Source: Tribonema minus
Taxonomy: Eukaryota; Sar; Xanthophyceae; Tribonematales; Tribonemataceae
Direction: 5' to 3'
DNA length: 64,000 nucleotides
Assembly: GCA_017506865.1 (NCBI GenBank)
Contig: JAFCMP010000114.1
Span: forward strand, 124,001 to 188,000
Positions within the stretch are counted from its first letter, which is position 1. Every line of letters starts with the position of its first letter. The notes under the pieces are model-generated. The model made no database searches, was not told where the DNA came from, and saw only the letters and a list, made by a program, of their open reading frames with translations. This document shows, piece by piece, positions 307 through 21,826 of this stretch. The translations under genes and the position numbers were made by a program.

Positions 307-3300
307 ATCTACAGCCTGGGACATCCCATGCACGCAGTGCCGCTGTCAACGCACACGCCCAGCCGCTTCGACGCCGCCACGCGCTGCATCGTGTGGGACG
401 ACGTGCTGCTCTTCCCTGTCAAGTACAGGTGAGAGAGTCCGGTCCACGCGCGGTCACAGTTGCAGCGCCAAACGTGAGTTGCCGGCAATGGCACAAGACC
501 ATCGCTTCTCATCCTCATAGCCTTCCAGGGCGCTGACGTCACGAGAATCTGCGTTCGCAGCGGCGAGCACTGCCGTCGCGTCTCCGCCTGAAGCACGCCT
601 TGCCGCGCGCCTCTGCATACCACACGCGGCAAATCCACCGCCCGCAGCAGCAGCGGCAGCAGCAACGCACGCGCGCGCACTCACCCATGCCCCGCCCCGC
701 AACGCTCAGGGACCTGTCGCGCGATGCGCAGCTCGTGGTGGTCGTCTGGGGCGTCGACGGCCGCGCCGTCGGCGCCACGCGCGCGCCGCTCTTCGCCGGC
801 GACGGCGCCGTCGCGCAGGGCCTGCAGAAGCTGGCGTTTACGTGGATCGAGCGCAACAGCGGCGCCGCCGCCGTCGCCGCCAGGCGCCAGGACCCGTGCG
901 CGCAGCCGCTGCACCTGTGGCTGCCGCCGGACGCGGAGGAAAGCGGCGGCAGCGGCGGCGGCGGCGGCGGCGACGATGACGCGTGCCAGTGCCGCGTGCA
1001 AGAGGACTACCGGTTCCTGCTGACCAAGGCGCTGGAGCGGCACGCGCTCGGGCAGTCGGCGCGCGTGGACTGGCTGGACGCGCTGAGCGTGCCGCGCGCG
1101 CAGGCGGTGCGTCACCTCTTGAGGTTGATGTCGCTGGTACCCCTGCGTCTATGTGTCATGGCCGAGAGCTTCACGTCTGTGAAGCGCGCTGCTGAACGCT
1201 GCTTCTCGGCGCCTAACCCTACCCCTGACCCTAACGGCGCGATGCAATGCTCCGGACGGCAATGACGGCCATGGAGAAAGCAGTGATCTTTGTGTCCCAG
1301 TCCTTTGAATACTTCAGGTCCCGGTCTGTGTGCAGTGGCTCGCGCCTACTTTAGCTACAACTGCTGAGCAGCAAAGCACATCGGGGGCAGCGCCGCACGA
1401 AGAGCTGCCGTGCGTGCGACAGTCAGCCCGTGGGCTCTCACGCTGGTGTCACGACGCTGCGACTGCGCCCGCAGACGCGGCTGGCCTAGTTCTTGCAGCG
1501 CACACCGCGCACTCGGCGCGTGCCACCCGTCTACCTTGTACTTCAACTTTGCACAGTTACCACGTGTACATCAACCTTCAATTTGTGAATCTGTGGGCCA
1601 CGATCGGCGACAGGACGGGCCATGAAGCCTCAGGGGCAGTGCTCACCCCCCCCTCTGACGCGCTGCCGGCGCCCCCCCGTGTCGCTGCAGATTATACGGG
1701 GGCAGGGGGCGCTTGGGGGGGCGGGGGAGTCCAGGGGCGAGGACGGGCGCGCGCGGGGAGCCTGGACCGTTCCGGAGCCGTACTTCACGCAGCTCGAGCG
1801 CGAGATGCAGGGCCTGGCCTTCATTGAGGTTGAGGTACGGCATTGAGGTTGGGATGCGGCCACGTGTGGTGCGGCGACTGCACACTCGTGTTGAGTGAGT
1901 TGGGGGTCTGCGTCAGGGACGGTGGCGGAGGCAGCCTCCACCCTATGTGCGTGTGGCGTCGTGCGGCGGTTGTATAAGCCCCCCTTCTGGCGGAATGCAA
2001 AATACACATTTTCTCAAGCTCCTCCAGCGTGCTGTGCTGCGCGGTGCTGCGAGCGAATGCTCGTTTCATGCTGTAGCTGTCAGACAGGCAGCAGCGCGTG
2101 AAGCCAATTCGGCCCACGCTCCGCGTGCCGGCGTTGCCGATGGCGCCAGAACACCAGCGCCGTGTGCAGGAGGATGCACGCAGCGCGCTAATGGTCACTG
2201 CTCGCGCGCGTTTCACCACACGGCTCAGTGCACCTCCGCCATACCTACCCTCCCATGCGCTCACGCGCCTGCGCAAACCCGTCTGCGTGCGCCGCCTGCG
2301 GAGCGCTGCTGTGCAGGGACACCAGGACGGAGCGCTGCACGCGCTCCACCACCGTCCGGCATTGAAGGACTCCGCGCGCTTTGAGCAGAAGTAGTGTTGC
2401 ACACTTCAAGGTGGTTGAAGTAGCTCGCGTCTGTGAGCACATGATTATAAGTCGACAGCGCTCTGTGAACTCGCACTTTTTGTTGACACCAGTGTTTTCA
2501 CAGCAAATAGACTGGAGTCAGTAGACTTGTTGCATTTTCATTGACATCAGTGTTTTGAATGCAAAAAAGTATGCGTCACCGGACAGCGCCATCGCGTTGC
2601 GGCTGACACGCTCGCTCCACGCCGCCGCCGCCGCCGCCGCGCGCAGCTGCCCGCCTTTGCGCACCCTGTCGTCCACGAGGAGAGAACCTACGACCTGGGG
2701 CTCGGTGGCGCGCAGCTGGGGGGGGGGTCCCTGGGGGGCGCACCCGTGCCCATACCCGACCCCGCCGCCACGGCCGCGCTGGACGAGGTAACCCTAACCC
2801 TACCTGTTTACACTCCGGCCTGCATATTTCGAAGAATACACTTGATTGAGGTAACCCTAACCCTACCTGTTGCATTCCGGCCCTGAAAGTACGTACCTCA
2901 ATGTGCATACTTCGAAGTACTTGATCGACGTGACCAATGTATATACTTCGTAGTACTTGGTCGACGTAACCCTAACCCTACCTGTTGCATTCCGGCCCTG
3001 AACCTACGTACATCAAAGTATATACTTGGTCGAGGTAACCCTAATTCTACCGTACCTGTTGCATTCCAGCCCGGAACCTACGTACACCAAAGCATATACT
3101 TGGTCAAGGTAAACCTAATCCTACTGTACCTGTTGCATTCCGGCCCTGAACCTGCGTACTTCAAAGAGTACTTCTTGGTCGAGGTAACCCTAAACCTACT
3201 GTACCTGTTTCAAGGCGTTGTGAACGACCCGGTCATGTCGAGCGCTGACAGTAACATGGCGGTTACGCGGGTTTCGCCCTCTCCGCGCTTCCGATGGCGT

Positions 3301-6300
3301 CATCGCGTCGCAAAGGTCTTGGGGTCCAGCGCTCACACTGCTGGGGAAGGGGGGGGGGGGGCTGCTGCTCCCTTTACCTACATCACTGCAAGCACTTCGT
3401 CGCGGGGGCACGGGGTAGGGACGGGGGGGGTTTGTGCCGGTTCTTCCGAAGGGGAGGCCTCGTACTTTTACTGCCTTCAATTGGGCAGCCCCAGTTTCTC
3501 TCAGTGTGCTCGCAAAGATGAATGGCCGGAGTTATCGGCATTGCAGAGCGTGCGCACTGACTTCCCTGACACCTGCGGCGCTGACGACTTGTATACTCGA
3601 CTCATCACCACAGTACATACATGCACAGCATGGACCGCGCATTCCCCTTGCAGGAGTAGTGTCGCGCGCGCTGCCCACGACTCCTGCCTCACCAATGACT
3701 CGTGCATTTGACTCGTGTACTTGACTCATCGCTACGATACATACCTGCCCTGCACGGACCACGCCGCGTCACCCCTTTGCGCAGGCGACGCTGGCCGCGC
3801 TGGGCGGCACGGCGCACATACATCCTGCCTCACTGACGAATTGTATACTTGACTCATGTACTCTTGACTCGTCAGTGACGGTACAAGCATACCCAGCACG
3901 TCACCTCCTTTGCAACAGGTGACACTGAGGCCGCTGGGCGGCGCTGCGTACACGCATCCTGCCTCACTGACGACCGATATACTTGACTCATGTACTCTTG
4001 ACTCATCGATGACGGTACATACATACCCAGCCTGTCACCTCCTTTGCGCAGGCGCCGCTCAACGCGCTGGGCGGCGCGGCGTACATTGACTCATCACTAC
4101 AGTACATACATACCCAACATGACTGTGTCGGGTCACCTCCTTGCGCAGACGACGCTGATCGCGCTGATCGGCGCGGCGCACATGCATCCTGCCTCATTGA
4201 CGACTCGCATACTTGACTCTTGTACTTGACTCATCACTACGATACATACTTACCAGCATGACTGCGGCGCGTCACCACTTTGCGCAGGCGACACTGAATG
4301 CGCTGGGCGGCGCGGCGTACATGGTGGTGACGGACTGGGAGACGGAGGAGGACAACCCCGTGGAGGGCAAGTACAGGAAGATGGCGCACGATCTGCTCAG
4401 GGGGCTGGTGAGAAGGGGCACGCCGTTGTATACTTATCTTTAAACAGCATGCGTTTCCACATGCATGTTGTACATACACTACAGACAAAAAGGGAAGATC
4501 GCGCACGATCTGCTCAGGGGGCTGGTGAGAAGGGGCGCGCCGTTGTACATTTGAAGCACGTGTCTGCACATACATGTTTACATTAGCGTTTGTACTTACT
4601 ACACAATAAGAAGGAAGATGGCGCACGATCTGCTCAGGGGGCTGGTGAGAAGGGGCGCACTTGAATACTTTTGAAACATAAGTCTGTACATACACGTCTA
4701 TATAGGTGTCTGTACATACCACACCCTAAAAAGGAAGATGGCGCACGATCTGCTCAGGGGGCTGGTGAGAAGGGGCGCGCCGTTGTGCTATTGAAGTGTT
4801 TGTCTGCCTGTGTGTACTACAAGTAATCATACTTTGAAGTACATGTGCTGTACTTGCATATGTGTGTGGTTAACAGCATCGTGCGCGCGGTAACTAAGGG
4901 CGCACAAGGGTACACGTATCTATGTGTAGTTGACAGCATCGTACGCGTGGTAACCAAGAGTGTAACCAAGAGGGCATATTTCTCGCATTTGACCCCCTGG
5001 CGCAAGGGGGGTTGCTTGTGTTGCATTAGCGATTGCGCATGGCCGCACTTAGCGTGTCGCGGGTCCCAACGTGGGCATTCCGCCATGTACCGGGACCATC
5101 ATGAGCACATGTGTGCACCTGAAGAGCGGGGGGGTGATATTTAAACATCAAGTTGTGGAGGCCCCGGCGCGTGCGAGCGGGACGCTGAGCGGCGCGCGCG
5201 CCGCACTTCAAGGCCTGTCCATGCTCGTCACAAGCACGCGCGGCTAATGAAATGAGCCCCCCGGTGTGGCAGCGCCGCGCACATGCTCAATGTCAAGTCA
5301 GCGTGTACACGCCTGATTTGCCCATCGCGCGTGCTGCGTCGCGCACGTCGACCCGGAGCTCAAGCCGAACCGCACACCTAACCCTCACCCCAACCCTGAA
5401 CCCTGACACTGACCCTGACGTGCCTCATGTGCCCGCGCGATACGCGCGCCGCGCGCGCCATGCAGGTGGACCCGACCGTTCTTCAGTTCGTAAACGTGTT
5501 TTAGAATCAGGCGTGGATGTCAAGTCAGCGTGTATGTACATGCGTGGTGTGCCCGGCGCGCGCGCGTCGTGTCGCGCAGGTCGACCCGGAGCTCAAGCCG
5601 ACCCGCATACCTGACCCTCACCCTTAACCCTGAACCCTAACCCTGACCCTAGCGTGCCTCGTTTGGTCGCGCGACATTCGCCGCGCGCGCTGCGCAGGTG
5701 GACCCGGAGCTCAAGCCGAACCGCGAGGAGCGCGAGCGGCTGGACGCGCTCATCAACAGCCCCGCGCTGGGCGACCACCTCAAGATGTGAGTCGGCGCCG
5801 CCGAGCGCTGCCGCAGGCGTGTTGCTTAGCGCTGCTGACACAGCGTCTGGTGTACCACGATATATGCATCTGTACTTACATATATACTGGTGTGAGTCGG
5901 TGCCGCCGAGCGCTGCTGCCGCAGGCGCGCGTGCGACGATGGCCGCACTCCCAGCGCAGCGCCTGGTGTGGTACTGCGTATACATGTGGATGTATACATA
6001 TACAAATATACATACTTCTATACTCCTACATATAAACTTCAAAGCGCTGGGCCACACCTCCAGATGTGAGTCGGCGCCGCCGAGCGTCGACGCAGGGTGT
6101 GTGACCGCAGCTGAGCGCTGCTGGCGCCGCGCTTGAGAGCGGCGGCGCTCGCCTTTCGCCGGGCGGCGCGGGCGCAGCGCCAACCAGCCGTGCCATCTCA
6201 CGGGCTCGCCTCGTTTACTCAGCGGCTGCAATGGAGGGCGGCAGCACGCGCGCGGAAGCGGGCACAGGGAGGCGGCCTGCACGCACGGCCGCGGCGCGAC

Positions 6301-9300
6301 AGCGCTGCTGCGCGCACGTGGCGCGAGGCCCGGCGGCAGCGCAGCGCGGGCGGTCCGGAAGCGGTGATAGCACGCTGGTCAGGGTTAGGGTCAGGGTTAT
6401 GGTTGGGGTCCCGGTCAGTTGTCCGTTGCGAACTGAGGCGCGTGCGCGCCGGCTGGGCAGCGCGCATCGATGCGCGTTCGATGTGCCTCTGCGAGCATAT
6501 GGAGCTAGCACATGAACGGCGCCTTGGTTAAGTGGGGATGCTGACATGACAGGGCTCAACCTGGCTCAAAACAGTGAAACATCAGCACGATCACAAGCGC
6601 ATGCTCATGCGTGCCCGCTGTCGCTGCCGCTGCAGGGAGGAGAAGGACTTGCTGTGGAAGTTCCGGCACTGCCTCACCGACAGCGAGAAGGCGGTTACAA
6701 AGTTCCTGCTCAGCGTGGACTGGTCCGTGGAACAGGAGGTGGCGCAGGTGAGGGGTGTTGCGCGCGCGGCCGTTGAAGTTGGCACCCGAGCACTCTGACA
6801 ACGGTTCCCAAATTGCGTTGAACATGAGCTGCTCGACCACATTGAACCGAGTATCGGAGCTGATAGATTCGGTGGTTGCGCTGGGGCAGGACCACATTGA
6901 ACGCCTTCAAATTATTGTCGTGCTGCTGCATGCACTTGAGGTTACAGCATCCAGCGCGGCGGCAGCAGGACGATGCCTGTGTCGGCAGCGCTGCTGCGGC
7001 TGAGCCCCGCCCTCCCTTGCCCTGCGTGGGCCTGCGCCTGCCTGCCACATGCGTCCCGCAGAGACACGCTGCGTGCTTGCACAGTGGCAGCAAGCAGCGC
7101 GCGCCCGCCGAGGAGTGCTGAGCAGTGCTGCTAGTCGAATGCTCGTGTTGCGCGCTACGCTTCTTCTCCGAGTATCACTCTTGTGGTGCCGTGGTGCCTG
7201 CCTCGCCGGCGCCGGCTGCTGCTGTGCGTGTGCCGCGCGGCGGTGGACGGATTTATCGTCGCAGCGGCAGCAGCACGCGCCCGCCGCCATACCCGCAGCC
7301 TTCTCTGGTGCTCATAGTCGTCATTGCTTGCGGCCGTTGTTTCTTGCGGGTGGCCGTGAGCGCGCAGAAGTTTTGCGTGACCCGCAGACTCACCAAACCC
7401 CCCCCCCCCGACCGCCGCGCGCGCTGCGCGCCGCCGCAGGTGGCCGCCCTGCTGGCGCAGTGGCAGCAGCGCGCGCCCATCGACGTGCCCGCAGCCTTTC
7501 CTGTGCTTATAGTCATGGCGCTCATAGTCAATGCTCTTTTGCCGGCGGTCACGAGCGGCAAACCAACCTTTACATATTCTGCCGACTCACCCCCCCCCCC
7601 GATTGCTACGCGCGCGCTGCGAGCCGCCGCAGGTGGACGCCCTGCTGGCGCAGTGGCAGCAGCGCGCGCCCATCGACGTGTCCGACGCGCTCAAGCTGCT
7701 GGGCAGGGAGAAGGCATTCCAGGCGGAGGTGAGCTGAGCGCTGATGCTGTTGTCTCTGAGCGCTGCCGCTCTCGTATGAGCACTGCTGCAGTGGCCTGCG
7801 TAGACTGAGCGCTGGTGCAGCGTGAACGTTGCCGCGGCACGAGCGCTGAGTAGCACGACCTGAGATCTGGCGCAGCCTCAGCGCTGGTGGAGGGTGAGCG
7901 CTGGTGTGTTTTGAGCGCTGCTGTGGCCAAAGTGGTGCTGCGACATGCGTTTTTGTGGTGCGCTGGTCTTGAGGACTGGCGCAAGCTGAGCACTGTCACG
8001 ACCTGAGCGCTGCTGCGGCGTGTGTGATGCTGCGGCCTGGGGGGCTCTGGCGCGAATCTGAGGGGCTGGCGCAGCCAGAGCACTGAGCATCAGCGCGAGG
8101 TGAGCAGCATCTACGCGTCCGAGCGATGGCGCGGCCTCCGCACTTGACGTGGCCTGCGTCAGGAAACGCTGCTTCCGCATGCTTGTGTACCACGGTTTGA
8201 ACCAGAGGCTGCTTCAGTCGACGTGGACTGGCTGCTCCGATGCTTTCCTCTTACCGACACCGAGCAGTAGAGTTGCATTGCTGCTTCCTCATGTGGATCG
8301 CTCTACGCGTACACACACACCTCTCACCAGCAGAACACATGCATGCATAGAGAAGGACGTGAACTTGTTCTGCTTCGCGCGGACGCTCTGCTCGTGTATA
8401 CCTCTCGCCAGCAGCCACACGTGAAGCATGGAAGAGCACATGAGTTTGCTGTGCGTCTGATCATGCGCGTGCGCGCCTCGCTGCCCCCTGTCCCGCCTGC
8501 TGCATGCAGGCGGTGCGGCGGTTCGCGATGGAGTACAAGCATGCACACAGAAGCACATGGGGTTGCCTGGTGTCTGATCAGAAGCGCGTGCGCCTCGCCG
8601 CCCCCTGTCCCGCCTACCCTTACCCTACCCCCAACCACCTGCGCAGGTGGTGCGACGGTTCGCGGTGGAGGCGCTGCGATCCGCGTCCGACGAGGAGCTG
8701 CTGGCCTACATGCTGCAGCTCGTGCAGGCCCTCAGGTATGCGCACTGCTCAGATTTAGGGTTAGGGTTAGGGTTAGACGTAGCTTGAGGTCAGGGTTAGG
8801 GTCAGGGTTAGGGTTGGGGTGGGTCTGAGGGCTGTCGCATTCAGTGCTGATGAGGTTGCTGTGGCGGAAATGCAGGAAGAGTTTTTATTTCCGACTTACC
8901 GCCGCCGCCGCCGAGCCCATGCGCCGCCAGGCGTGTGCCACTAACACCTCACTGGGACCTCACTCTACATCAGTGCATTCCGCGATCGCGCTCCACTGTT
9001 TCATCGGCACTGAAGCTCTTGCTGAATCGTGTGCGCAGGTATGAGCCGGCGCGCGTGCCGCCGCCGCCGCCGCCGCCGGGCCAGCTCGCGCCGCCGCCAC
9101 CGCAGCAGGGCGACGCCGAGCCGGCGCCGCTGACGCCGCTGGCGGCGTTTCTCGTGGAGCGCGCGTGCGGATCGTTCCACCTGGCGTCCTTCCTGTACTG
9201 GTACCTCAAGGTGCGTTGGGCGGGCGGGCGTCGTCACGTGTGCAGCGCGCTGCACATGTGCTCGCACACGGGGTCGGGGTCTGACAGGGGCGTAGCGGTG

Positions 9301-12300
9301 ACGGCGGGCGCAAAATCGAACCCGCCGTGTTGGATGTACACACGCGACGGACGCATGCGCGCTGCACAGGGGCCGCGTTGTTACTGCGCGGGACGTGCGA
9401 GCCTTGTCTGACCGTGCGTGCTGGAGTGCTGGATGTCATTGCCGGTGTGCCGCAGGGTGGCCCCGTGCCGCAGGTGCGCGGGCGCGAGCGGTACCCTGCT
9501 CCTGCAGCAGAATGCATGTGTACGGTACCGCTCGGCCGACTCAGGAGTCCGCCCGATCATGTACCTCTGCATGCGTATTGCCGTGACGTTGCGCCAGCGC
9601 ATGCCTAGCCCCGACCCGACCCTGGGCTTTGCTCCCGCTGATGACGTCACGTGTGCGCGGCGGCGGCGGCGGCGGCGTCCGCTGGGCACACCGGGTCCCG
9701 GCATTTGCAGCGTCTGCGCTCCCCGCAGGCGACTGCGCCCTGCGGCGGCTGCGGCATGTATCCTGTCGAGGTGGGGGCGAAGACAGTCATGTGACAGCCG
9801 CCGCTTCCGTGTTGTCGGGCGCTGTTCGCGTGCACCGCAGGTGGAGGTGGACGACAGCACGCACGGCGGCGTCTTCCGCGCCGTGTTCGACGGCTTCGTG
9901 CGCGCAATGCAGCGCGGGACGCAGCGCAGCGCGCACATCATCGGCATGCTGCAGGTGCGCGCGCAATCGTGTTGAGCCGTGTGGTCGCGAGCCGACGGTT
10001 TCGCGCATGGTTGCGAAAGCGCGTGACTGCGTGTGTCACCCTGAAAGCCAAGAGCGTCAAGCGCAGAGACACTCAACGGCCGCACGCCCACGGCTTGCTG
10101 GGGAGCGCCTGCGCCTGTGTACTTCAGGGAGAGCCTGCGTCTGTGTACTTCGATTCAAAGCTTTAGGGCGATGCTGCTGTGTGCACCCTGCAGTGCGATG
10201 GCATGTACAGCACTTTGCAGCACCATGTGTGAGCGGTGGAGGCACCCGCGGAAGCCAGCCTGCTTGCAGCAGTCATGTCCAGCATGTGCTGACTCTGCGT
10301 CAATTGTTCCACACCGCCAACGCACGTCTCCCATCACTGCTCACGTGTCCAAGAGCAGTGCGCTTCCCATGGCTGCTCAGGGTCCGGCTGCTCTGTTCAG
10401 ACAACACGAACGCATGCATAACGGCATGATCGGCTCTTGGGGAGATCTCTTGAAAGCGATTTCTGCTCTACGTATGCATGCATGACGATCAATGCAGAGC
10501 CGCTCATGCATGATCACACACGCCACCAGCAGTCAAAGCGCGGCGCTGCGCACGGCCCTGCGCCCGTGCACCTCGCAGAACGTGCAACGGAGAACCCCTC
10601 CTTTCGCACTCGCCGCCAGTCGTCTGCCTGCAAAGAAGCGCACCGAACGCGCGCCCAGCAGGCTCAGGAGGGCTACATCGGCCACGTCCACTCCGTCGCC
10701 AGTCTATGGCCTGCAAGATATGCGTACTAATGTGAGCCCATGCGTCGCACGCGCGTGCCCTCGCAGGCTCAGGAGGGCTACATCGGCCGCGTCGCGGAGG
10801 CTCAGCGGCTAGCGCGCGACGAGAAGGGCCGCAAGGAGGCCAAGGAGAGTCGCCTGCGCCAGCTACTTCAAGAGCCGCAGCTGGCGCGCGTGGGCGCGTA
10901 CCTGCGGCGCGACGGCGCCGCGCTGCCGATGCCGCTGGACCCCGGCGTGCAGGTGATAACGCTCAGTCGACTGCCGCACCTCGCATGCCTTACAGCGTGG
11001 CGTAGCAGAGGTTGCGCGCGCCGCACGGCCATGTGGCGGCTGCCTCACCGCTTGCACGATCCGCCCTCGATATCAAACCGAAGGTCGCTGAGCCGAGAGC
11101 GCGCTTGGCGCGGCGGTCAGCAGAAGACTGCCGTGGCGGCGGCAGCAGCAGCAGCAGCAGCGGAGCGCGACGCATCCTTGTTGGCTAGGGAGTCCATCGC
11201 GACCGCTCAACCGCACGCGCGCGTGTGCCTGCTGCGCGCGCTGCCGCAGGTGACGGGGCTCAACCCGCAGTCGGCGTTCATGTTCCGCTCCGCGCTGTAC
11301 CCGTGCGTGGTGGAGTTCATCGTCGGCGAGGACCGCGGCGCCGCGGCGGCGCAGCTCGACCGCAGCGGCAGCGGCAGCAGCGGCGGCGGCAGGAGGGGCG
11401 CGCACGCGCCGGCGGCGGCGGCATCTGCCGACAAGGTACGTGGCTCCGCCGCATGTTATCTGCAGCGCGCCGCATATTCAGTTGGGGGTGGAGGTTGCGC
11501 GCTTCGCCCTCTGTGGGCGTTCAAAGGGGGTGGGAGGTGGAGGCTGCAGCGGCGCTGCGGCGGCAGCAGCGGAGCGCCGCGATGCGTGACTTGCGCAATG
11601 GCTGCTGTGTCGATAACGTGTGAGAGCTGCATCGCCGCACAGCGTACTCTGACATCCAAGGCTAGTGGTGGTCCCGCGCGATCGCCGCCGTAGCACGAGT
11701 TTGCCTGTGCAACTTGCAGCTGGCGCTGAGAACCAGCATTCGGGGCACTGACCGCCTTTGAGGCTGCTTCGATCAGAATTGCGGCTGCGTCGATCAGGCG
11801 CGAGAGCCATGCCGTCGTGTGATTACTGTACAACCAACACCTCTGACATCTAAGGCTGTGTGGTGGCCCCGCGAGGTCGCCGCCGCTGTGCCAGTCTGCC
11901 TGTACGTCTTGCGACTAGCGCTGAGAATGTGCATTCGGGCATCCGCCGTCCCCGCTTGTTGCTAGAGCTGTTTCACGATGCACTCGTGCCGTGTGCGCGA
12001 AGTGCTGGTCGCATCAGCCATCAGGTGTCCGCATCGCCTCGACCAGTGCTCAGCGGACGCTGTTGCGTGTCCGCTGCCTCAGCTCAAAGACGAGTGCTGC
12101 AATGGAAAGCCGATGGCTTCCACCAGGCAGCGTAGGCTTGCTGCCACACGATCGCGATGTGTGCAGAGCGCGGAGCGTTGCTGTATGGCCCTCTTGCCTG
12201 ACCCTAGCCCCAACGCTTACATCACTGAGGGATTATCACTCATTGGCTCGCGGCTCGGTGTCTTGTGGTCCCATGAGCGCAGGACTCGCGCAAAGTCATC

Positions 12301-15300
12301 GCAGGCCGAGCAAGCGACAATACATCAGTGTTATAGTGAGACATTTGCTCTGTCGTTTGTGCCCTGCCTGCTATTCCCCCAGAGCTTGTAATAGCGTGAA
12401 TTTGTGCAGATCGCGGAGCGTTGCTGTATGGCCCTCTTGCCTAACCCTCACTTCAACCCTTACATCACTCATCGGCTTACGGCTTGGTCTCCTGTGGTCC
12501 CGTGAGCGCAGGACTCGCGCAAGTCGCCAGAGGCCGAGGACGCCAAGTCGTATAAGGTGAGTGCGCGGCGCCGCGCCGGAACGGGCGCCCGACGTTTGTC
12601 GCCGCAGCGATGGCGTTGACTTGAGCTGGTTTTGCTTTTTACCCGCGCGGAGGACCAAGAGAGATGTTGGGTCATAGAGTTGGTGCTGCCTTGCGTGCCT
12701 GCTACACTGGAGCAAGTGCCTTGGAAATGTACACAGAATTCATGGCAACGGTATTAGTTTGATTTGGGTCAACCTTGTCTTTTTTCTCAAAGAGCGTTTA
12801 TTGAAGAATGCCCTAGAGATGCAACTTGAAGTGGGGATCTTCTGGCTCAGCTTGTATGTGAAGGAGCACGAACTGGTGATGTTGTTCAAGATTACTGTTG
12901 ACCCTCGTGGGCGTGCATTGTCTCACAGCGCGCGTGCATGCGGGCAGGTCATCATCAGCAACCATCTTCAACGGGTGACGATGACCTGCGGCGGGGCTAC
13001 TTTTGACATGTATATTTGTTGTGTAGACGGCCCAAACATGATGTGTATGTCGTCTATGCGTACCATCGATCCTCACCGTGAAGTGCCTCACGGCGTGCGC
13101 GCGCACGCGTGCGGGCAGGTCATACTCAACAGCGGCGACGACCTGCGCCAGGGCTACTTTTGACACGTATACTTGTTGTATACATGCATAGCCCATACAT
13201 ATGTTCCTGTCATCTAGACGTACCGTTGACCCTCACTGTGAAGTGCCGCCCGACGCGTGCGCGCGCATGTACAGAAATCAGGCTAGTGAGCAACAGCTCT
13301 CTACGTCGCATCAACTTGTCGTACGTACAGTCCGTAGGTTTGTACATGTCACTTATACACACCTCACTGTGAAGTGCCTCGCGACGCGTGCGCGCGCGCG
13401 TGCGTGCAGGTCCTCTTCAAGAGCGGCGACGACCTGCGCCAGGACCAGCTGGTGATCCAGATGGTGTCGCTCATGGACGGCCTCCTCAAGCGCGTCAACC
13501 TCGACCTCAAGCTCAGGCCGTACCGCATACTGGCCACGGGGCCCAAGGTGAGCGACTGCGCGTCGCGCTGCGCAGAGCTGCAGACGGCTGAGGCGCTGTG
13601 GAGTGCATTTCTTCCTCTGAAACTACTGTGGACGTAGGCTGGCTTCCATGACGGCACGAATGTGGCCCCACCTCAGGTTTTTCATGTTTTCGATCAGGTG
13701 TGGGCTACTATCACTGTTTTCTTTTCTTCGACTTGCAGCTCAGCGAATGTCGGGCGTTGAAGTCCGTAGGGGGGCACTTTCTCTGACTTGCCTGCAGGCT
13801 CCAGCAACGCCACGTGCTCGACCTATGAAGACCGGCGTTGAACCGCCAGCGCTGCTCAGCAGCGGACGCCGGAACTGCAACAGAGCGTCCTTGCAGGCTG
13901 CGTGCACCGCGCACACGCCGACCATAGCCGCCGGGCCGTGTCAGTCGTCGCACGTCTCGGTGCGGCGGCACTGGGGGCTCTGCAGCCAACAGGCCGGTCA
14001 TAAAATGGGGGGCACTGGCAACACTTTGCAACAGATACTCGATTTCCCCCAGCGCCTGCCGCCCCCCGCATTGACTCCCAACTAATACCCGCCTCCGCCG
14101 CCGCCGCTGCCCCCCCCTCCCCCCAGGACGGCCTGGTGGAGTTTGTGGCGGGCAGCCTGCCCATCTCGCAGGTCCTGGCGACGTTCGGCAACAGCATCCT
14201 CGACTACCTGCGGCACCACAACCCGGACGCGGCGGGGCCGATGGGCGTCGCGCGCGACGCCGTGCTCACGTTCGTCAAGAGCTGCGCGGGGTACTGCGTC
14301 ATCACGTACATCCTCGGCATCGGCGACAGGTGCGCCGCGCGCTAGCGCGCGTGTGTGTGCGTGTGTTTGTGTGTGTGTGTTCGTGTGTGTGTGCATGTTT
14401 GTGTGTGTGTGTGTTGCTGGGGGAGGGGAGGAGTTGCTGCCCGCAGCACATCCGTGTCGTGTGTGTGTGCGTGTGCCGCGGCGGCCAGGGTGCGCCTCGC
14501 GAGCAGCAGCGGCATACGGACTGCATGCATCGTCGGTCTTTCGTTCGTCTTGCTGCGTGTGCTGCTTCCATTCGCATCTCTGCGCGCTGTTGTTGGGGTG
14601 GTGGCGGGACTGGTATGTAGACTGGCCGTCACGCTGCGCGTCGGAGTAGCGCCGCGCCGCTGCTGCGCGCCAGCGCCATCAACGACCTTACAGAGAGTCA
14701 ACGTTGAGTACGTGGTGCCCGTTGACTCGCGCTCGCTCGTTGTACGCACACGTGGCGCGCTGCGGCGCCGCCGCGCCGCCGCATGCGCCTTTCCATGTGG
14801 CGCCGCTGACGATCTGCCGCCGCCGCGCTGCGCCGCCGCCGCTGCCCCCTGTCTGCTGCTGCCGCCGCGAGCAGGCACCTGGATAACCTTATGCTGCTGC
14901 CGGAGGGCAACCTGTTCCACATTGACTTTGGCTACATCTTTGGCAGGGACCCCAAGCCCATGGCGCCGCCCTTCAGGCTCACCAGGGAGATGGCGGACGG
15001 TACGCGCTGCTGCTGCTGCTGCCGGCGACGCTCGTGCTGCGTTCATTGATGGTTGTTGCATGTGCATGAGATGGTGCGCAGGTCGTACGGCGCGTGCTGG
15101 GCAGTGCATGAGATGGTGCGCAGGTCGTACGGAGCGTGCTGGGCAGTGTCTCGGGGCCTTAATTGCAGTGCGTGCAATGCAGTTGAAGTAGGGTTTGTGT
15201 TTGCGACGGAGCGAGCCGTTGCGAGTGCAAACTGTGCAGTGATTCAAGTGCCTCAAAGTGATTCCTTGAAAACATACATCTATAATCTCGTGCAGGAGCT

Positions 15301-17908
15301 GTGTTGCAATTGCCGGTCGCTGGTGTGCGGGGCGTCCAGTTGTGCGGCTGCACTTCAGAGCGCGCACGAGCCTGTTGCTGACAGACGTTGCCCGCACGTG
15401 ATGCCGCTGCCGCTGCTTCCGGTGCCGCTTGACTCGCCGTTTGGTGCCGCAGCGATGGGCGGCGTGGAGTCCGAGTACTACGGGCGCTTCAAGACGTACT
15501 GCTGCCAGGTAAGATGCTTGTGTCGTGTGGACCGCGGCATCAGTCCGCAGTAGCCTCTCACACCACAGTAAAGCTTACGAACTCGGCACTCGGCTTGTCC
15601 GGAGCCGTGCACGCTGCATCAGTGGGTGTGGACTCATCCCCTGTTGCCTCGTTGCCGCGCGTGGTGCTTCCCTCCCCAGCAGCGCGCACGGCTACTTTTC
15701 GCTGCCACACATTGCAGCACAGACCAGTTGCCTTGGTGTCACAGCGGCCCGCCGCCGCGTCTGCGCTGCGGTCTGTGTGTGACACACCCGTGCGGCGCAC
15801 AGCATGCCACACACGCTGTCGCCGCGCGCAGTTTCGCCCTCGAAGTGCGGCGCGATGAGCGCGCAGCCGTGTTGGTGCCAGAGCGCATTCTGCTTTTGCG
15901 CAGCTAGGTCTGATCATGTCGTCAGGCGCTCCGCGCTTGTGGCATCAAGATGTGCTGAGTGCCCTGCGGGGGTTGCTGCAGCAGGGCGGGGGGCGTGCAC
16001 GCGTAGCAGCGCAATCTGCTGACGGCACGGCTGCGGAACTTGAAAGCAGACTTCTGCAACAAATGAGAGCTTCCGGCCACAGCTCACTGCTGGTAACAAG
16101 GGGAGCGCTTCTCAGTGCCAGAAGTACAGTGGGGAGTCTTGATTGTGACTGAAACGGGGAATCTTTGTCATGCTTATATTCCGTACCTCCATTTGCAATG
16201 ATCAACAGCAGCGTTGAACTGCGACGCGCACTCGACGTGACATTAGTACGCATATCAAAAGCCCCACGTTAGCTCAACGATCTTTTTGATTCGTTTTTCA
16301 TATGTGTAGTGTAGGCGCTGGAAATGCCCGACTTTGCAACTTTTCTTTTCCATTCAAAATATTTTAATGGAGCAGCTTCCTGCATGACTAGACAAGTCAG
16401 TCCACAGACAGCCCACATCTGCCTTCCCTTTCAAACTGCTGAGCCGCAGCTGACGATGATAAGAACCTGCACATGCCGCGACGGCACTGACCTCCCCCCC
16501 CATGTTGCCGGGTGCTGCGCTGCCTCATGGCTCTTTCGCCCTCACCTGGAGGCGCATTGCATCGCCTCACCGCCCCTCTGATCACGCATGTGCTGTGCCC
16601 CCCCCCCCCCCTGTCCCCCCTCCCCCCCGGCGCGCAGGCCTACACGTGGCTGCGCAAGAGCGCCCACCTCATCCTGAACCTGCTGAACCTCATGGTCGAC
16701 GCGGGCATCGAGAGCCTGTCCACGGACCCCGTCGCCGTCCTGGGGCGCGTGGCGGAGCGCTTCAGGCTGGACCTCAGCGACGAGCAGGTGACTTTCATGC
16801 GTCCGCTGCTCGACAAAGACGAATTCAGTTGTCGCCCCACGAGGCATCGAGATGTTTAGCGCTTTAGGTAGATTGATTGAAAATCATGTCCAAGGGCATG
16901 CGTGCACGTCATCAGGCTGGCACAAGTAATAGCGCCAGGCTTCAGCCGTGTCTCAAAGTACAGTATAGATTCTGTACCGTAAGCGTTGACATCAATCATC
17001 TAATATAGATTCTGTACCGTAAGCGTTGACATCAATCATCTGGGCTTTTCGCGCCCTGAGTGAGAGTCAATACACAGTACAGTGTGGCGTTTCTCGAAGG
17101 GACATGCAGGCGCGCTGGATGTTGAGGATGGCTGTCTGAGCGCTGCTGCTGTTGGACAGTTTCGCGGGGTCGCTGCGCGCCGCGAACAACGAGCGCGCCA
17201 AGTGCGCATTGTGGAAGTCACAGCTCACTTCGACGTGGCGGCATGGGAATGTTCTGGGGGTCGGGCGGCAGATGTGCCCGTGGTGTCATGGCGTGTTGAG
17301 CACAGGCGCTGCACGCCGCGCATGCGGTCGCTGTTGCGGCGTACCGCAGCCCACAGTCGGTTCGGCAGTATAGGACAGCGCGACCTGATGCATCAGGAGT
17401 GCGTGCTTTTGCAGTGGCCATTCTTTGCATTCGTGGCTGTGCCGCGCTGATGCCGGACAGCTCAAAGCCACAGCTGCATGCTGCCAGGCAAGTGTGCACA
17501 TGACTCGATTTTGACCTCGTCTCAAATGAGCAGCACCTCGCCATTTGGAGTTTTCGAATTAAAAGAATACACGAGCAGCTGCCGCGAACCAAAGCTCCCC
17601 GCGGCGCGGCATGCGGACGCGGACGTTCGCGCGACGCTATTCACCACCGCGTGCATCGCTGGAACACGGCGGCCAAATTCACTGCAACGCGCTGTGCCTG
17701 CGCTGCGTCACACACAGGGAGCGGCGTGTCACCGCAGCGTTTTGCTCATCGGCGGTCATGTGTGCGCCATCTGAACCGCCCTGCACGCGTCTTGCCCGCC
17801 TCTACGCAGGCGGACCACTTCTTCCTGTCGCTCATCGATGAGAGCCTGTTCGCCTTTGCGCCGCGCGTCATGGAGGTGATGCACAAGATAGGCGTGTCGC
17901 GGCGGTGA
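307..17908 (+). CDS. VPS34: Class III phosphatidylinositol 3-kinase VPS34 (5' partial, 19 exons visible)
   Basis: Makes PI3P from phosphatidylinositol on endosomal and autophagic membranes. Exons, all phase-consistent: 307-428, 710-1106, 1691-1834, 2647-2787, 4288-4407, 5698-5786, 6636-6747, 7633-7728, 8647-8735, 9039-9210, 9841-9954, 10767-10952, 11250-11435, 13410-13547, 14127-14329, 14875-14999, 15453-15508, 16638-16787, 17810-17908 (TGA). They give 912 residues; the start lies upstream. A C2 domain comes first ([26 protein letters not shown]), then the PIK helical domain ([43 protein letters not shown]), then the kinase: [11 protein letters not shown] near residue 660, catalytic loop GIGDRHLDN near 766-774, and [14 protein letters not shown] with its Asp near 787. 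All key residues are intact. Exon 2 carries Ser/Gly and exon 10 Pro-rich inserts. The C-terminus ends GVSRR rather than the usual aromatic tail. Introns hold exon-edge duplications. Family assignment is firm; the edge of exon 3 is least certain. Confidence 0.96.
2783..3215 (+). repeat. Minisatellite made of VPS34 exon 4 donor-edge copies
   Basis: The junction after exon 4 (GAG then GTAACCCTAACCCTACCTG) is repeated about six times at roughly 60-115 bp spacing (near 2785, 2849, 2966, 3033, 3106 and 3181). Most copies retain a (G)AGGTAA or near-match donor, followed by a telomere-like CCTAACCCTA, then CTGTTGCATTCCGGCCCTGAACCTACGTAC and a GTATATACTTGGTC-like segment. Only the first copy joins a usable reading frame. 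Confidence 0.85.
3575..4330 (+). repeat. Five tandem copies of the VPS34 exon 5 acceptor edge
   Basis: The polypyrimidine tract, AG and first ~35 nt of exon 5 (like GCGACACTGAATGCGCTGGG) recur after AGs at 3784, 3918, 4051, 4148 and 4287. Spacing is about 134, 133, 97 and 139 bp. Between them lies a shared spacer with TTGTATACTTGACTCATGTACTCTTGACTC and GGTACATACATACCCAGC. Only the last copy leads into the conserved coding sequence. Confidence 0.88.
4372..4775 (+). repeat. Four tandem copies of the VPS34 exon 5 donor edge
   Basis: The last 24 nt of exon 5 and the first ~11 nt of its intron (core GCGCACGATCTGCTCAGG then GGGCTG and donor GTGAGAAGGGG) occur at 4384, 4501, 4621 and 4741. The spacing is 117-120 bp. 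The 35-nt core is identical in all four, while the intervening sequence (CATACATGT/ACACTACA-like) has diverged. Only the first copy is preceded by an open frame. Confidence 0.92.
5270..5735 (+). repeat. Copies of the VPS34 exon 6 acceptor edge
   Basis: GTGGACCCGGAGCTCAAGCC, the first bases of exon 6 at 5698, also appears as GTCGACCCGGAGCTCAAGCC at about 5346 and 5581, and in degenerate form (CAGGTGGACCCGACC) at about 5463. A ~115-bp spacer with ATGTCAAGTCAGCGTGTA and interstitial CCCTAACCCT words is shared. Each unit carries a CAG- or AC-ending pseudo-acceptor. Confidence 0.85.
5775..6100 (+). repeat. Copies of the VPS34 exon 6 donor edge
   Basis: The end of exon 6 plus its donor (CTCAAGATGTGAGTCGGCG then CCGCCGAGCG) recurs as TGGTGTGAGTCGGTGCCGCC at about 5888 and CTCCAGATGTGAGTCGGCGC at about 6060. 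The following CTGCCGCAGGCG segment is shared too. Three donor-edge units therefore sit within ~330 bp. Confidence 0.82.
7072..7700 (+). repeat. Copies of the VPS34 exon 8 acceptor edge
   Basis: The start of exon 8 (CAG then GTGGACGCCCTGCTGGCG, CAGTGGCAGCAGCGCGCGCC) at 7633 is almost fully duplicated at 7442, where about 60 nt match. Shorter, decayed versions lie at about 7080 (CAGTGGCAGCAAGCAGCGCG) and 7260 (CGCAGCGGCAGCAGCACGCG). The 7260 and 7442 copies also share the downstream text GCAGCCTTTCCTGTGCTCAT, showing tandem duplication rather than codon convergence. Confidence 0.85.
7729..8110 (+). repeat. Degenerate GAGCGCTG repeat in VPS34 intron 8
   Basis: The donor GTGAGCTGAGCGCTG of exon 8 is followed by ten or more dispersed TGAGCGCTG(G/C)TG words (for example near 7736, 7757, 7807, 7841, 7895, 7912, 8005). 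It resembles an eroded minisatellite derived from the donor region. Confidence 0.55.
8500..8545 (+). repeat. Copy of the VPS34 exon 9 acceptor edge
   Basis: GCAGGCGGTGCGGCGGTTCGCGATGGAG matches the true exon 9 start (GCAGGTGGTGCGACGGTTCGCGGTGGAG at 8643). The preceding CTGCCCCCTGTCCCGCCT pyrimidine tract is duplicated as well (8480s and 8600s). The copy lacks the open frame of the exon. Confidence 0.75.
10645..10700 (+). repeat. Copy of the VPS34 exon 12 acceptor edge
   Basis: CAGGCTCAGGAGGGCTACATCGGC, identical to the first bases of exon 12 at 10767, occurs ~107 bp upstream at about 10660, together with the preceding GCGCGTGCCC/GCGCGCCCAG stretch. It then diverges (CACGTCCACTCC) and cannot substitute for the exon. 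Confidence 0.85.
11650..12545 (+). repeat. Two diverged duplications inside VPS34 intron 13
   Basis: A ~100-bp segment at 11654 (ACATCCAAGGCTAGTGGTGG) is repeated in diverged form at 11843. A ~130-bp segment starting CGGAGCGTTGCTGTATGGCC near 12171 is repeated near 12416. Both copies of the latter end in GAGCGCAGGACTCGCGCAA and AGGCCGAG. This intron (11436-13409, ~2 kb) otherwise shows no coding sequence. Confidence 0.75.
12940..13175 (+). repeat. Copies of the VPS34 exon 14 acceptor edge
   Basis: The exon 14 start (GCAGGTCCTCTTCAAGAGCG then GCGACGACCTGCGCCAGG) at 13407 recurs at about 13117 (GGCAGGTCATACTCAACAGC then the identical GCGACGACCTGCGCCAGG). A decayed version lies at about 12945. 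Both copies share CTACTTTTGACA(C/T)GTATA. The copied codons cover the ATP-site GDDLRQ motif of the kinase. Confidence 0.85.
14343..14425 (+). repeat. GT-rich microsatellite beside the VPS34 exon 15 donor
   Basis: GTGTGTGTGCGTGTGTTTGTGTG-type sequence starts ~15 nt after the exon 15 donor. No coding potential; an interrupted (GT)n tract. Confidence 0.85.
15058..15150 (+). repeat. Perfect-like ~47-bp tandem duplication in VPS34 intron 16
   Basis: GCATGAGATGGTGCGCAGGTC then GTACGGCGCGTGCTGGGCAGT is followed directly by a second copy differing at one position (GTACGGAGCGTG). It lies in the intron after the DFG exon. Confidence 0.88.
16964..17041 (+). repeat. Two perfect 38-bp copies, 40-bp period
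   Basis: TATAGATTCTGTACCGTAAG and the rest of a 38-nt unit ending CAATCATCT occur at 16964-17001 and again at 17004-17041 without mismatch. This is the last VPS34 intron (16788-17809). Confidence 0.92.
17033..17080 (+). repeat. Dispersed ~48-bp element, copy A
   Basis: CAATCATCTGGGCTTTTCGC then GCCCTGAGTGAGAGTCAATA closely matches copy B at 55093-55141, which has one extra T and a few substitutions. Both copies sit in the last intron of a large gene (VPS34 and the H+-ATPase). Confidence 0.75.
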
Positions 17909-19711
17909 CGGCAACGCGTTGCAGCGTCCTCCGAGAGCGAGTGGTGGTGACACCGCTAACAGCATGTGCATACATGACAAATACAGAAGAGTCGCCATGC
18001 GGTGGCCATGAAGTTGCGACCGAGGCCGCGAGATAGCGGCACTGCTCGGTCGAGGCTCGCCGTGTCGTCGAGGATAATATCGACATGATCAGCGCCACAA
18101 GCAATGCAACTGCCACGACGTTTTCAGACCGCTTTTGTGGCTGCTTGATCTATGTGCACCCAGGTTTTGTCGATGCAACGCAATCTTGGTAGGTACCTGT
18201 ACGACATTCGTCTTGCTTGCCAATGTGGAGACGGACGGATGTGCTTTGTGGTAGCATCGCGTGTGCCCTGTGCTTAGGGCTTGAGCAGTGACAAGTGGGA
18301 GTGTCACCTGCCTTGTCTGCACTTGTCACACTGTGTGTGAACAATGGACCACTCTTGCATGGGATCTGGTGGTGAAGCGTCTTCTTGCTGGCCAGTGGGC
18401 CTGCACTGCCCTGCAGGTGTATATTTCAACATTGGAGGAGTTTGAGGCCTACGGCGTGTATGTGAAGCTGCAGTGCTGTTTGTTTGTGACACCTCACCAA
18501 GATCACCAACACCAAGGTAACGCCCGGCAGCAGGGCCTGTTGTGGGGGTTGGCAGCCCAGTTCAGTCTACACACTGTATGGCATGGACCTTGATGCTCGG
18601 CAAGTGCAAGCAGCAGCAAGGCGTCAATGCTGAGTGTCAAAGTGATTAGACATTAAGCATCCGCGTGCCAGATTCTGGCATGAAATCAGTGTGGCAGATG
18701 CATGGCTAAGCGATGCTTTGCTTTTTAAATACTGCTTTATTCTGAAAGGAGAGGGTAGGGTGTGAAGTGAAAAATGAAAATGTCAGGAACTTTCTGTTGG
18801 CCGCAAAGAAAAAGCACTTTTTGAAAAGCACTTTTTTTAGTTTAGTTTTTTCTAAAGAAAAGCTTTTCAACGCACCGTAGGTTCATGTCAATGGTCATTC
18901 ATCGCTATTCACCGCTCGAGGCGGGGTAGCTGGTTTTCTGAGTCGAGGCATGATCATGACGCGAGATCTCCACACGGCTTTCGGGAGGTTAACGGGGGGT
19001 TGACACCGAATCACGTCTGGAAAGAATCATGAGAATCATGTCACCCCAGAGGCACATGAGAGCAGCTGATTCTGAGGCCTTGACAGTTGAAAGCGTGCAC
19101 CGCTGCCGTATGTGTCTCTGGCACCGCATCCAAACAAACAAAGGTTTTATACAAGGCTTAGCTGGCTTGGCACCACGCCGGCCATTACTCTGCATGTGTG
19201 CCACTGCCGAAGGTCAGGCGGACTTTGACTTCACCCCCCACCTCATGTCGAGGCATCGCGCATTGAAGCCTAGCAGTAGCACACAGCCACACTGTATGTA
19301 CAGGTGTCTTTCCCATGAAGAAGGTCCGACATCCTCAACTTCAACTTTCTCAATCTCGGCGGCATTTTCGTGTGTAGCCTTGTGTGTGTCACTGCAGAGT
19401 CGTAGACACGGCAGCGAGCTGCATAATTGCTGGCGGGTGTGTAGCACCTTTCCATGTCCAGACAATCCAGCACCATCAATGCTGTGCGCCTAGAAGACGA
19501 GCTCCGCAAGCTCTCAAGCTCTCGCGTTTTCCAGGGCATCGCCTAGAGTCGCCAGCGCGCTACGGGTGAACAAATCCAAGTTAGCTTCGGAAGATAACCC
19601 TACCAACCTACCACCGTCGAGCGGAGCACCCCGTGCGTTGCTATACCGCAGCCAGGCCAGGCGCAGCGGAACCGGCCTCTGAGCAAAGCATTGCACGCAG
19701 CAGCAGACTGC
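17909..19711. other. Intergenic region between VPS34 and the Gln-rich gene
   Basis: No coding sequence was recognised here. Around 18720-18860 there is an A/T-rich patch with a repeated AAAGCACTTTTT word, the likeliest place for VPS34 3' processing signals, though I see no clear AATAAA. Short open frames near 18288-18593 and 19029-19493 look like chance. Confidence 0.6.
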
Positions 19712-20231
19712 ATGTCGTCGTCGGCTTGCAGCGAGGGCGCTCACCGTCGGACACCGCCTGTCGTATACAAGGCCTCCTCCTCCCTCCCCGCAGCCACCGC
19801 AGCCGCGGTCTATGCGAGTCATGCGCGAACGGCTTTTAAAGCTAAGGTGGCCGCCACTCCGTATGCCAGCTCTTGGACGCCACATCTGAGCAGCAAACGT
19901 GCGCGCGACACCTCCGAAGACGACGAGGACCTGTGCCGCACGCGAGGGTCGTCCGAAATGATCGCGGCAAGCATGTGGCACGATGAGATTGACTGTCCGC
20001 AAAGCAGCGGGGAAGCGCACCAGCGAGCCTGTCAGAACGGCAGCTGCAATCTTCTGAACTTGCTTGCCACTGCGGCGGCTAAAGTTGAAGGTAGCGCGGT
20101 GACTAAGCGGGAGCAGTGGCAGCATGAAGTGGAGCCTGGTAACCGGATACTTCAGCAGCAGCGACAGGCTCCTGAGCAGGACCTGCAGCAGCAGCAGCAG
20201 CACCAGCACCACCACCACCAGCAGCAGCACA

Positions 20232-20262
<31 letters not shown>

Positions 20263-20308
20263 CCAGCACCACCACCAGCAGCAGCAGCAGCAGCAGCAGC
20301 ACCACCAT

Positions 20309-20340
<32 letters not shown>

Positions 20341-20782
20341 ATACGAGCATTCACAGCAGCGACAGCTGATGCAACGCCAGCTGCAGCATCTACAACAGCA
20401 GCAGCAGGAGGAGCAGCAGCGCCAGCAGGCACAGCAGCAGCAGCAGCATCATCATCATCAGCAGCAGCACCAGAGCCAGCACCAGCAGCACCAGCACCAG
20501 CAGCAGCAGCACTTCCAAGAGCAGCAGCGTGCTGCGGCGCTCAACAAGCGCCGCGAGCTGCAAGCGATGCTGAACAGCAGCAGCGGCGACGACGATGGCA
20601 GCGCGCGGCAGTCGGCAGGGACAGACCTCGGAGTGCCACACTTTGCAGGGCTGCCAGCACAGATTCGCTCGCTGCAAGACCTGCGCCAACAGTACACTCC
20701 GCCATCCGAGGCGGTCGCACAGTTCATTGCGCGGCAGCCCACACACATGAATGTCGTCGCGCGGCGCCAGCTGCAGCTCCAG

Positions 20783-20865
<83 letters not shown>

Positions 20866-21360
20866 GCAGCAGAACCAGCTGCACCGCCATCAACACGTGC
20901 CGCAGCGGCGACACGAACGGCAGGAGCACCTGTCGCAACACCGGCAGCACCAGCAGCATGAGCAGGAGCACATGAAGCTTCAGCAGCGCATGCCGCAGCA
21001 ACAGCAGGCGCTGCCGCCGCAGCAGCAGCACCAGGAGATGGTGACAAGCGCCGCTCAACAGCGCTCATCGCCGCTGGCAGCACACGCCATTCCGTCGCCA
21101 CATGTGGCGCAGCAGCAGCAGCAGCAGCAGCAGGCAGGGTCCAAAGAGCCGCGGCGCCATTTGGCATATCCCCAGGCCATGTGCCAGCAGCAGGGCTACG
21201 ACAGTCAACAGCCATTAGTTCTGACGCAGCAGCAGCAGCAGCAGCAGCAAGGAGGAGCCGCGCCGCCGCTGCTGCTGGTGCAGTACCCCCAGCCGCAGCT
21301 GAGGTACCTGCAACACAGCCCTGATAGCAGCAGCAGCGGCAGCAGCAGCAGCAGCAGCAG

Positions 21361-21401
<41 letters not shown>

Positions 21402-21523
21402 GCAGCAGGGCTGGCGGCGGCAGTGCCGGCGGCGGCAGCGGAATCAGCGGCAGCACGGACATGGTGCTGCACATGCAGGCCAGGCCACAGCAGCACCTTC
21501 ACCAGCAGCAGCAGCAGCACCAC

Positions 21524-21557
<34 letters not shown>

Positions 21558-21700
21558 TTCGGCAGCAGTCTCCTGTGCAGCAGAATTACCGGCAGCAGTG
21601 GGCGTGGGTGGCGCTGCCGCCGGCGTCGCACGGCTTCCCCGTGCAGCTGGCGGCAGGCCCGGCGCTCGGCGAGCACTACGTGGTGGCGGTGCCATCCGCA

Positions 21701-21735
<35 letters not shown>

Positions 21736-21826
21736 AGCGGTGGTTGCGCCGGCGCCACGCGCGCAGACGTTCCGGCCGCTGGGCTACGCGATCGCCGCCG
21801 GGCACGCGGCGCTGCCGCCACGCTGA
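19712..21826 (+). CDS. Gln/His-rich low-complexity protein, function unknown
   Basis: Single uninterrupted frame of 704 residues from ATG 19712 to TGA 21824-21826; an upstream TTG at 19691 is in frame but less likely as start. Residues ~1-145 are ordinary, with KRARDTSEDDEDL as a possible nuclear localisation patch. A Q/H-rich block then runs to ~280. A more ordinary island (nt 20550-20775, with RSLQDLRQQY and AVAQFIARQPTHMNVVARR) follows. After it come a pure Gln run of about 30, more Q/H, a Ser run, and an Ala run near residue 670. Polyglutamine coactivators and transcription factors can look like this, but no domain is recognisable. The CAG repeats open every frame, so the case for coding rests on the non-repeat islands and the GC-rich codons. 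It could contain unrecognised introns. Confidence 0.6.
20150..21570 (+). repeat. CAG/CAC trinucleotide repeat tracts
   Basis: Long imperfect (CAG)n and (CAC)n arrays encode the Gln/His tracts. The purest is at 20780-20865. An AGC-frame serine array lies at 21325-21405 and a GGC/GCG alanine array at 21700-21745. These are the classic unstable trinucleotides and the most length-polymorphic part of the window. Confidence 0.95.

Follow-up and report, generated by a model that had tools for sequence, protein, structure and literature searches.

VPS34 exon edges are duplicated in tandem

The window analysed in this study is a 64,000-nucleotide stretch of the Tribonema minus genome (G000:C114:124001-188000; assembly of 158 Mb in 554 contigs). 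It contains a VPS34/PIK3C3 gene, whose 16 internal exons (710 to 14999) join on splicing into an open chain of 785 codons. Since a Pfam search with two short exons gave no match, the chain was identified by a PDB search instead, in which its helical and kinase parts aligned with human PIK3C3 (E = 5e-115), in agreement with the name VPS34 given in the first-pass annotation. The window gave no match to Rfam. Light-harvesting genes are numerous (92 exon matches), and the PDB relatives of two of them are named FCP, ACPI and LHCI. From these relatives and the RuBisCO small subunit, which was not found in the assembly, we infer that the host carries a red-lineage plastid. Long GCA/CAG repeats lie at 20185-20511, 20768-20883 and 21326-21568, inside a 711-aa open frame (19691-21826), and two pairs of perfect repeats, of 40 nt at 16964-17041 and of 31 nt at 42606-42668, seem to have arisen by very recent duplication.

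The VPS34 exon at 4288-4407, exon 5 of the first-pass annotation, is flanked on both sides by tandem copies of its own splice edges, as the annotation had proposed. Tandem Repeats Finder reported repeats at 3767-4085 (period 134) and 4375-4796 (period 120), and a second repeat search recovered these copies as well. On the acceptor side, the working junction (4287/4288) is preceded by four clear copies and by a degenerate one, which was read by eye only, at successive spacings of 139, 97, 133, 134 and about 130 nt. On the donor side, the working junction (4407/4408) is followed by three copies, at spacings of 117, 120 and 120 nt. Thus, of the five acceptor copies originally claimed, four are clear and the fifth is degenerate, and the fourth of the claimed donor copies is the working edge itself; the claimed periods of about 97-139 and 117-120 bp match those measured. 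Each clear copy carries 34-36 nt of exon on the acceptor side and 32-33 nt on the donor side, where 24-35 nt had been given. All seven clear copies retain AG or GT, and whole units are 63-93% identical among copies. The copies cross the exon-intron junction, with the innermost pair surrounding the exon, as had been described; the units contain intron sequence, and for this exon the donor and acceptor edges lie in separate arrays.

A genome-wide search with a 90-nt donor-edge query and a 231-nt acceptor-edge query matched this locus only in each case, very common words being skipped and the match counts being lower bounds. Units common across the genome, one outcome considered in the annotation, were thus not found. 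The other, an assembly artefact, is unlikely given the divergence among the units and the recurrence of the pattern at other loci (see below). The implied view that this exon is special is not supported, as 9 of the 34 VPS34 junctions (Table 1), together with junctions of kinesin genes, carry junction-spanning copies.

Table 1. Exon-edge copies and arrays along the VPS34 gene (window coordinates).
Feature	Position	Strand	Remarks
Donor-edge array, exon 2647-2787	2780..3212	+	Telomere-like CCCTAA runs; exon part just 8 nt
Acceptor-edge array, exon 4288-4407	3586..4323	+	Copy junctions before 3785, 3919, 4052 and 4149; degenerate copy near 3654; working acceptor 4288
VPS34/PIK3C3 exon	4288..4407	+	120 nt; open chain and PDB match
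Donor-edge array, exon 4288-4407	4375..4807	+	Working donor 4408; GT copies at 4525, 4645 and 4765
Acceptor-edge array, exon 5698-5786	5290..5724	+	Three copies
Donor-edge copies, exon 5698-5786	5764..6131	+
Acceptor-edge copy, exon 7633-7728	7260..7684	+	Exon part 52 nt
Weaker acceptor-edge copy, exon 8647-8735	8435..8670	+	Below the junction-copy criterion
Acceptor-edge copy, exon 10767-10952	10648..10793	+
Acceptor-edge copy, exon 12512-12556	12157..12538	+
Acceptor-edge array, exon 13410-13547	12928..13443	+

Junction-spanning copies recur in kinesin genes and are local

To assess how general the pattern is, we assembled 51 homology-anchored introns with 102 splice junctions, 17 introns from VPS34 and 34 from kinesin genes. 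The kinesin loci were chosen by exon matches (132), not by repeats, and 25 of the 40 loci requested were sampled; these gave 57 pairs of adjacent exons, of which 13 lacked a junction call and another 10 were lost when calls were filtered, so that 34 introns remained. We found junction-spanning copies in the adjoining intron at 27 of the 102 junctions (15 acceptors and 12 donors; 49 copies, one to four detected per junction), as compared with 0 of 102 when the introns were reversed. VPS34 and 10 of the 25 kinesin loci had such copies, which together lie on ten contigs; the remaining 15 kinesin loci showed no copy at any junction kept. Duplication clusters were present in 26 of the 51 introns. 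At kinesin locus L018, the donor kept (4083) turned out to be a duplicate of the true one near 3937. It is still included in the counts over 51 introns and 102 junctions and in the cluster, cross-locus, intron-length and G-run/GC/AGGT analyses, and was dropped from the 50-intron cluster count, the exon-side screen and the intron-window, distance-rate, divergence, indel and splice-score tests.

In the 314 kb of all sampled sequence, 77 tandem arrays were kept, with units of 60-400 nt (80-239 nt in 65 of the 77). Of 55 non-coding arrays lying beyond the 51 introns, 48 adjoined coding signal, where 24.8 were expected from random non-coding intervals. The value for the full set of arrays (63 of 70, 31.5 expected) is biased upward, as the count excluded 10 match pairs wholly inside the 51 introns and an uncounted set of arrays near locus ends; the argument rests on the former comparison. 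An exception to the exon-anchored rule is the tandem array at 39297-39910 of the window, whose 149-nt units are up to 96% alike and whose coding signal is below threshold at both ends. Three other arrays of the window (43701-44005, 47270-47518 and 54577-54779) have coding signal on the left only and are perhaps edge copies of exons yet to be identified. A ceiling of about 70 nt on the exon part, seen in the 51 introns, was discarded as a fixed limit, since other loci reach about 126 nt as judged from match ends.

The copies are local. Junction-spanning matches numbered 50 in the own intron and three elsewhere at the own locus, one of these being the true L018 donor. The 48 matches at other loci comprised 22 to triplet-repeat sequence, 22 to kinesin exons of those loci and four weak ones. 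When the 25 kinesin loci and the window were compared, 5 of the 51 introns matched other loci (25 of the 34 matches listed), so that the likeness of introns across loci expected of introners was not found. Among the matches listed, one of these introns matched via a dispersed repeat of at most 151 nt and the others mainly via short exon-derived or repetitive pieces. Dispersed repeats and introners were accordingly rejected as the origin of the copies, since both the genome-wide and the cross-locus searches show the copies to be local. A dispersed repeat shared by the 4009-5083 intron of locus L020 (gene strand), locus L019 (7489-7632) and the window (55077-55141), with 151 nt at 83% and 65 nt at 100% identity, contrasts with the private exon-edge arrays.

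Duplications concentrate at splice junctions

The first-pass annotation had suggested that introns grow by slippage or unequal exchange centred on splice junctions; of this, growth centred on junctions holds statistically across the VPS34 and kinesin genes. In 50 introns, 25 of the 32 clusters of duplications cross a junction, as compared with 8.3 expected from random placement of units (p = 1.5e-10), and the kinesin genes alone gave 16 of 21 clusters (5.8 expected). When clusters were scored over all 51 introns, five of the seven classed as interior either ended about 60 nt or less from a junction or crossed one by too little to be counted. Copies were found at 27 of 102 junctions, versus 154 of the 2884 interior points that lie outside junction-linked spans and 513 of 3798 when every interior point is counted. 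The contrast is weak in the loosest crossing test (26 of 102 junctions versus 830 of 3580 interior points), as the interior points there include the copies themselves.

A possible concern is that constraint on exons keeps old junction copies visible for longer. Windows lying wholly in introns answer this, as they contain no exon. A copy deeper in the intron was found for 64 of 224 such windows near a junction versus 111 of 984 far from one (28 introns, paired p = 0.001), and the corresponding values without VPS34 were 40 of 152 and 49 of 684 (19 introns, p = 0.005). The duplication rate fell with distance from both intron ends, the reversed control giving 3 of 998. Introns with copies were also longer (median 869 nt, 22 introns) than those without (584 nt, 29 introns; p = 0.0009), a difference that fits growth by copying, its direction being unproved.

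Copies decay in aggregate and mostly look splice-competent

Eighteen arrays were found via intron sequence alone, and in the 13 of these with an exon part, divergence was 9.3% in the exon part and 14.7% in the spacer. The ratio of 0.63 is close to one half, the value predicted when changes accumulate in the copy alone, showing neutral decay in aggregate. An initial reading of special conservation, based on pairwise averages of 11% in the exon part and 38% in the spacer, was dropped, since those averages are biased by having found the copies by their exon part and the intron-found arrays give a nearly neutral ratio. Each of the 11 indels seen in the exon-derived parts disrupts the reading frame. 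Differences at the three codon positions (50 of 562, 41 of 563 and 76 of 560) show an excess at the third, suggesting that the working exons changed too. The idea that the oldest copy lies farthest from the exon was rejected, as no consistent gradient was seen.

Two arrays look non-neutral. In the donor copies of junction 4407, the 32-33 nt derived from the exon show 1, 0 and 0 changes, and the aligned spacers differ by at least one third. At kinesin locus L031, a 66-nt exon edge (5362-5430, gene strand; copies at 5595-5663 and 5895-5961) has two copies with 2 and 0 changes and a third that is 82% alike, with homologous flanks about 73-83% alike. As read from these alignments, both arrays would fit gene conversion or constraint, and the L031 array suggests that the exon edge may convert its copies.

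GT or AG is retained in 42 of the 49 copies, as against about 38-39 estimated from average identity. With a matrix built from the working sites, 39 of 48 copies scored above the 5th percentile of those same sites. Use of a copy as splice site was predicted to cause a stop or frameshift in 44 of 48 cases. As the copies look splice-competent and yet would mostly be disruptive, the choice of the inner pair probably rests on exon definition.

Possible triggers

A G4 or GC-rich trigger was considered and found no support, since neither G-runs nor exon GC differed between junctions with and without copies, G-runs being no commoner at the former. In a set of seven tests, copies were associated with lower intron GC (p = 0.011) and a larger exon-intron GC step (p = 0.009). 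AGGT was present at 44% of the junctions that have copies and at 49% of the others. The GC content of the kinesin loci was 0.51-0.66.

Telomere-like CCCTAA/TTAGGG clusters numbered 98 in the 314 kb, as compared with 6-28 for six control hexamers. In both orientations, 32 of them lay in the 51 introns, some being copies within one array, and none in 22 kb of kinesin exon matches. Their association with copies was not significant (p = 0.07). In the window, such runs occur for example at 1212, 2789-3190, 5377, 5633, 6381, 8755-8820 and 12440, and the donor at 2788 itself runs into telomere-like sequence. In mammals, break repair is reported to insert telomere-like runs (PMC2246262 and PMC7215372), and together with the runs in these introns this makes break repair our best guess for the trigger, weakly held. 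Two of four young, near-complete duplications had no overlap at their breakpoints, so that no repair signature was established.

Discussion

We consider it likely that recurrent tandem duplication across splice junctions, hidden by splicing and known as exon stuttering, accounts for the arrays. As the anatomy shows, a segment across the exon-intron border, mostly of 80-240 nt, is duplicated in tandem; repeated rounds build arrays holding two to about six copies, and every copy brings along a splice site together with roughly 8-126 nt of exon. Splicing presumably keeps the pair of sites enclosing the whole exon, as under exon definition, leaving the protein unchanged; the other copies would stay inside the intron, and in aggregate they decay like neutral DNA. 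As the duplications cluster at junctions, introns would lengthen from their ends, and duplications wholly within exons would be purged, so that only those hidden by splicing remain. The trigger may be a break or a stalled fork close to an exon edge, with repair by fill-in or template switching. A broader proposal, which we advance tentatively and with more doubt than conviction, is that in some eukaryotes exon edges may be generally prone to tandem duplication, independently in birds and this alga, so that exons would seed intron growth; duplications would go unseen within exons only through selection, and some working edges may rewrite their copies by short-tract gene conversion.

Untargeted tandem duplication, falling evenly over introns and tolerated where it spans a junction, with such copies recognisable for longer because the exon edge is constrained, would explain the neutral look of the copies in aggregate and the weak contrast under the loosest filter (interior points including copies). 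By this reasoning, an exon side decaying half as fast could bias detection up to about twofold. We nevertheless think this rather improbable, as three times the expected number of clusters span a junction, windows free of exon are still about 2.5- to 3.7-fold enriched near junctions, and the rate declines with distance from both intron ends. Smaller still, in our judgement, is the chance that the copies are functional decoys, that is, extra splice sites under selection, regulating for example splicing or nonsense-mediated decay. The retained dinucleotides, the strong site scores and the unusual conservation of the copies at 4525-4765 speak for such a role. Against it, the retention is close to that estimated from identity, exon-derived divergence fits neutrality in aggregate, and copies present in 22 of the 51 introns, from unrelated genes, are many for specific control; the frame-breaking indels weigh in the same direction, though a decoy need not keep frame.

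That the arrays record the birth of introns, either by insertion of introners or by tandem genomic duplication of AGGT segments in exons, seems to us very improbable. Such duplication is a described route to new introns (PMC4974935) and AGGT stands at nearly half of the junctions, but it is no commoner where there are copies, few of the introns sampled match other loci, and the repeated unit already holds intron sequence, so that the intron came first, which speaks against intron birth for these arrays. Hardly any weight falls on an assembly or polishing artefact: assemblies are error-prone at tandem repeats, but the copies are diverged, with private changes, and are spread over VPS34 and the ten kinesin loci on ten contigs.

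Intron lengthening is usually ascribed to transposons and random drift. About a quarter of the splice junctions sampled show a lengthening route that is local and anchored on exons, each array being a record of past duplications. In a single-celled host, if culturable, the trigger could be put to the test. The site scores reported above also warn that strong decoy sites confront gene finders and splice predictors here.

Among known systems, intron gain by tandem genomic duplication (e.g. PMC4974935) shares a duplication with splice motifs whose product is concealed by splicing; it makes a new intron from an exon, whereas in the alga an existing intron is lengthened. In polyubiquitin genes, dual-specific AGGT sites (PMC10809524) also form tandem splice-like sites within a gene, but those, by that account, delimit coding units and are used. 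Staggered-break repair has been invoked for newly gained introns of Daphnia (PMC4202315). Repair of this kind would yield local direct duplications near breaks. The Daphnia repeats are reportedly short and flank the newly gained introns; the algal copies are instead exon edges.

The first-pass annotation knew of no term for the pattern, but one exists: exon stuttering, described in 2026 on the dot chromosomes of birds, in chicken (Hron et al., PMC12954441). As reported there, exon parts that reach the border (median 36 bp) recur with their splice site along the neighbouring intron; 190 of 5,572 introns on dot chromosomes (3.4%) are affected, with a median of 4 and up to 44 copies, and more than 90% of matches are border-reaching. 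Features given include intron-length variation among individuals and very GC-rich small chromosomes, and gerbil genes are mentioned, with data not shown. In literature searches, stuttering terms appeared in that paper only and, judging from search listings, no report from an alga or protist was found. We modelled an exon-side screen on it, with 120 nt of exon side per junction and a threshold of 42.1 bits, and without manual review; as the query was always 120 nt, it enters the previous intron where exons are shorter. Fourteen of 50 introns were positive, with 27 of 30 matches at the border and a median of 42.5 nt, and a shuffled control gave 0 of 50.

Judged from its sequence, the algal pattern is exon stuttering in anatomy. 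As far as the published description goes, the two systems share a lateral exon part with its donor or acceptor, repeated imperfectly in tandem through the adjoining intron and of local origin, similar border-reaching shares and exon-part lengths, introns in which imperfect repeats, tens to hundreds of bases long, are expanded locally in tandem, and an intact coding region, which in the alga was checked for VPS34 only (the 785-codon chain). They differ in that the algal host is photosynthetic, that its cases lie on ten contigs and are tied to no single chromosome class in the sample, that 14 of 50 introns are affected as against the 3.4% of chicken dot-chromosome introns, that detected copies per junction are fewer than in birds, and that in the alga most clusters are exon-anchored. 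What is new here is thus the host, the frequency and the exon anchoring, the kind of phenomenon being already known. Its occurrence in an alga as well as in birds, with gerbils mentioned in PMC12954441 (data not shown), suggests that the mutational process is shared and not peculiar to birds.
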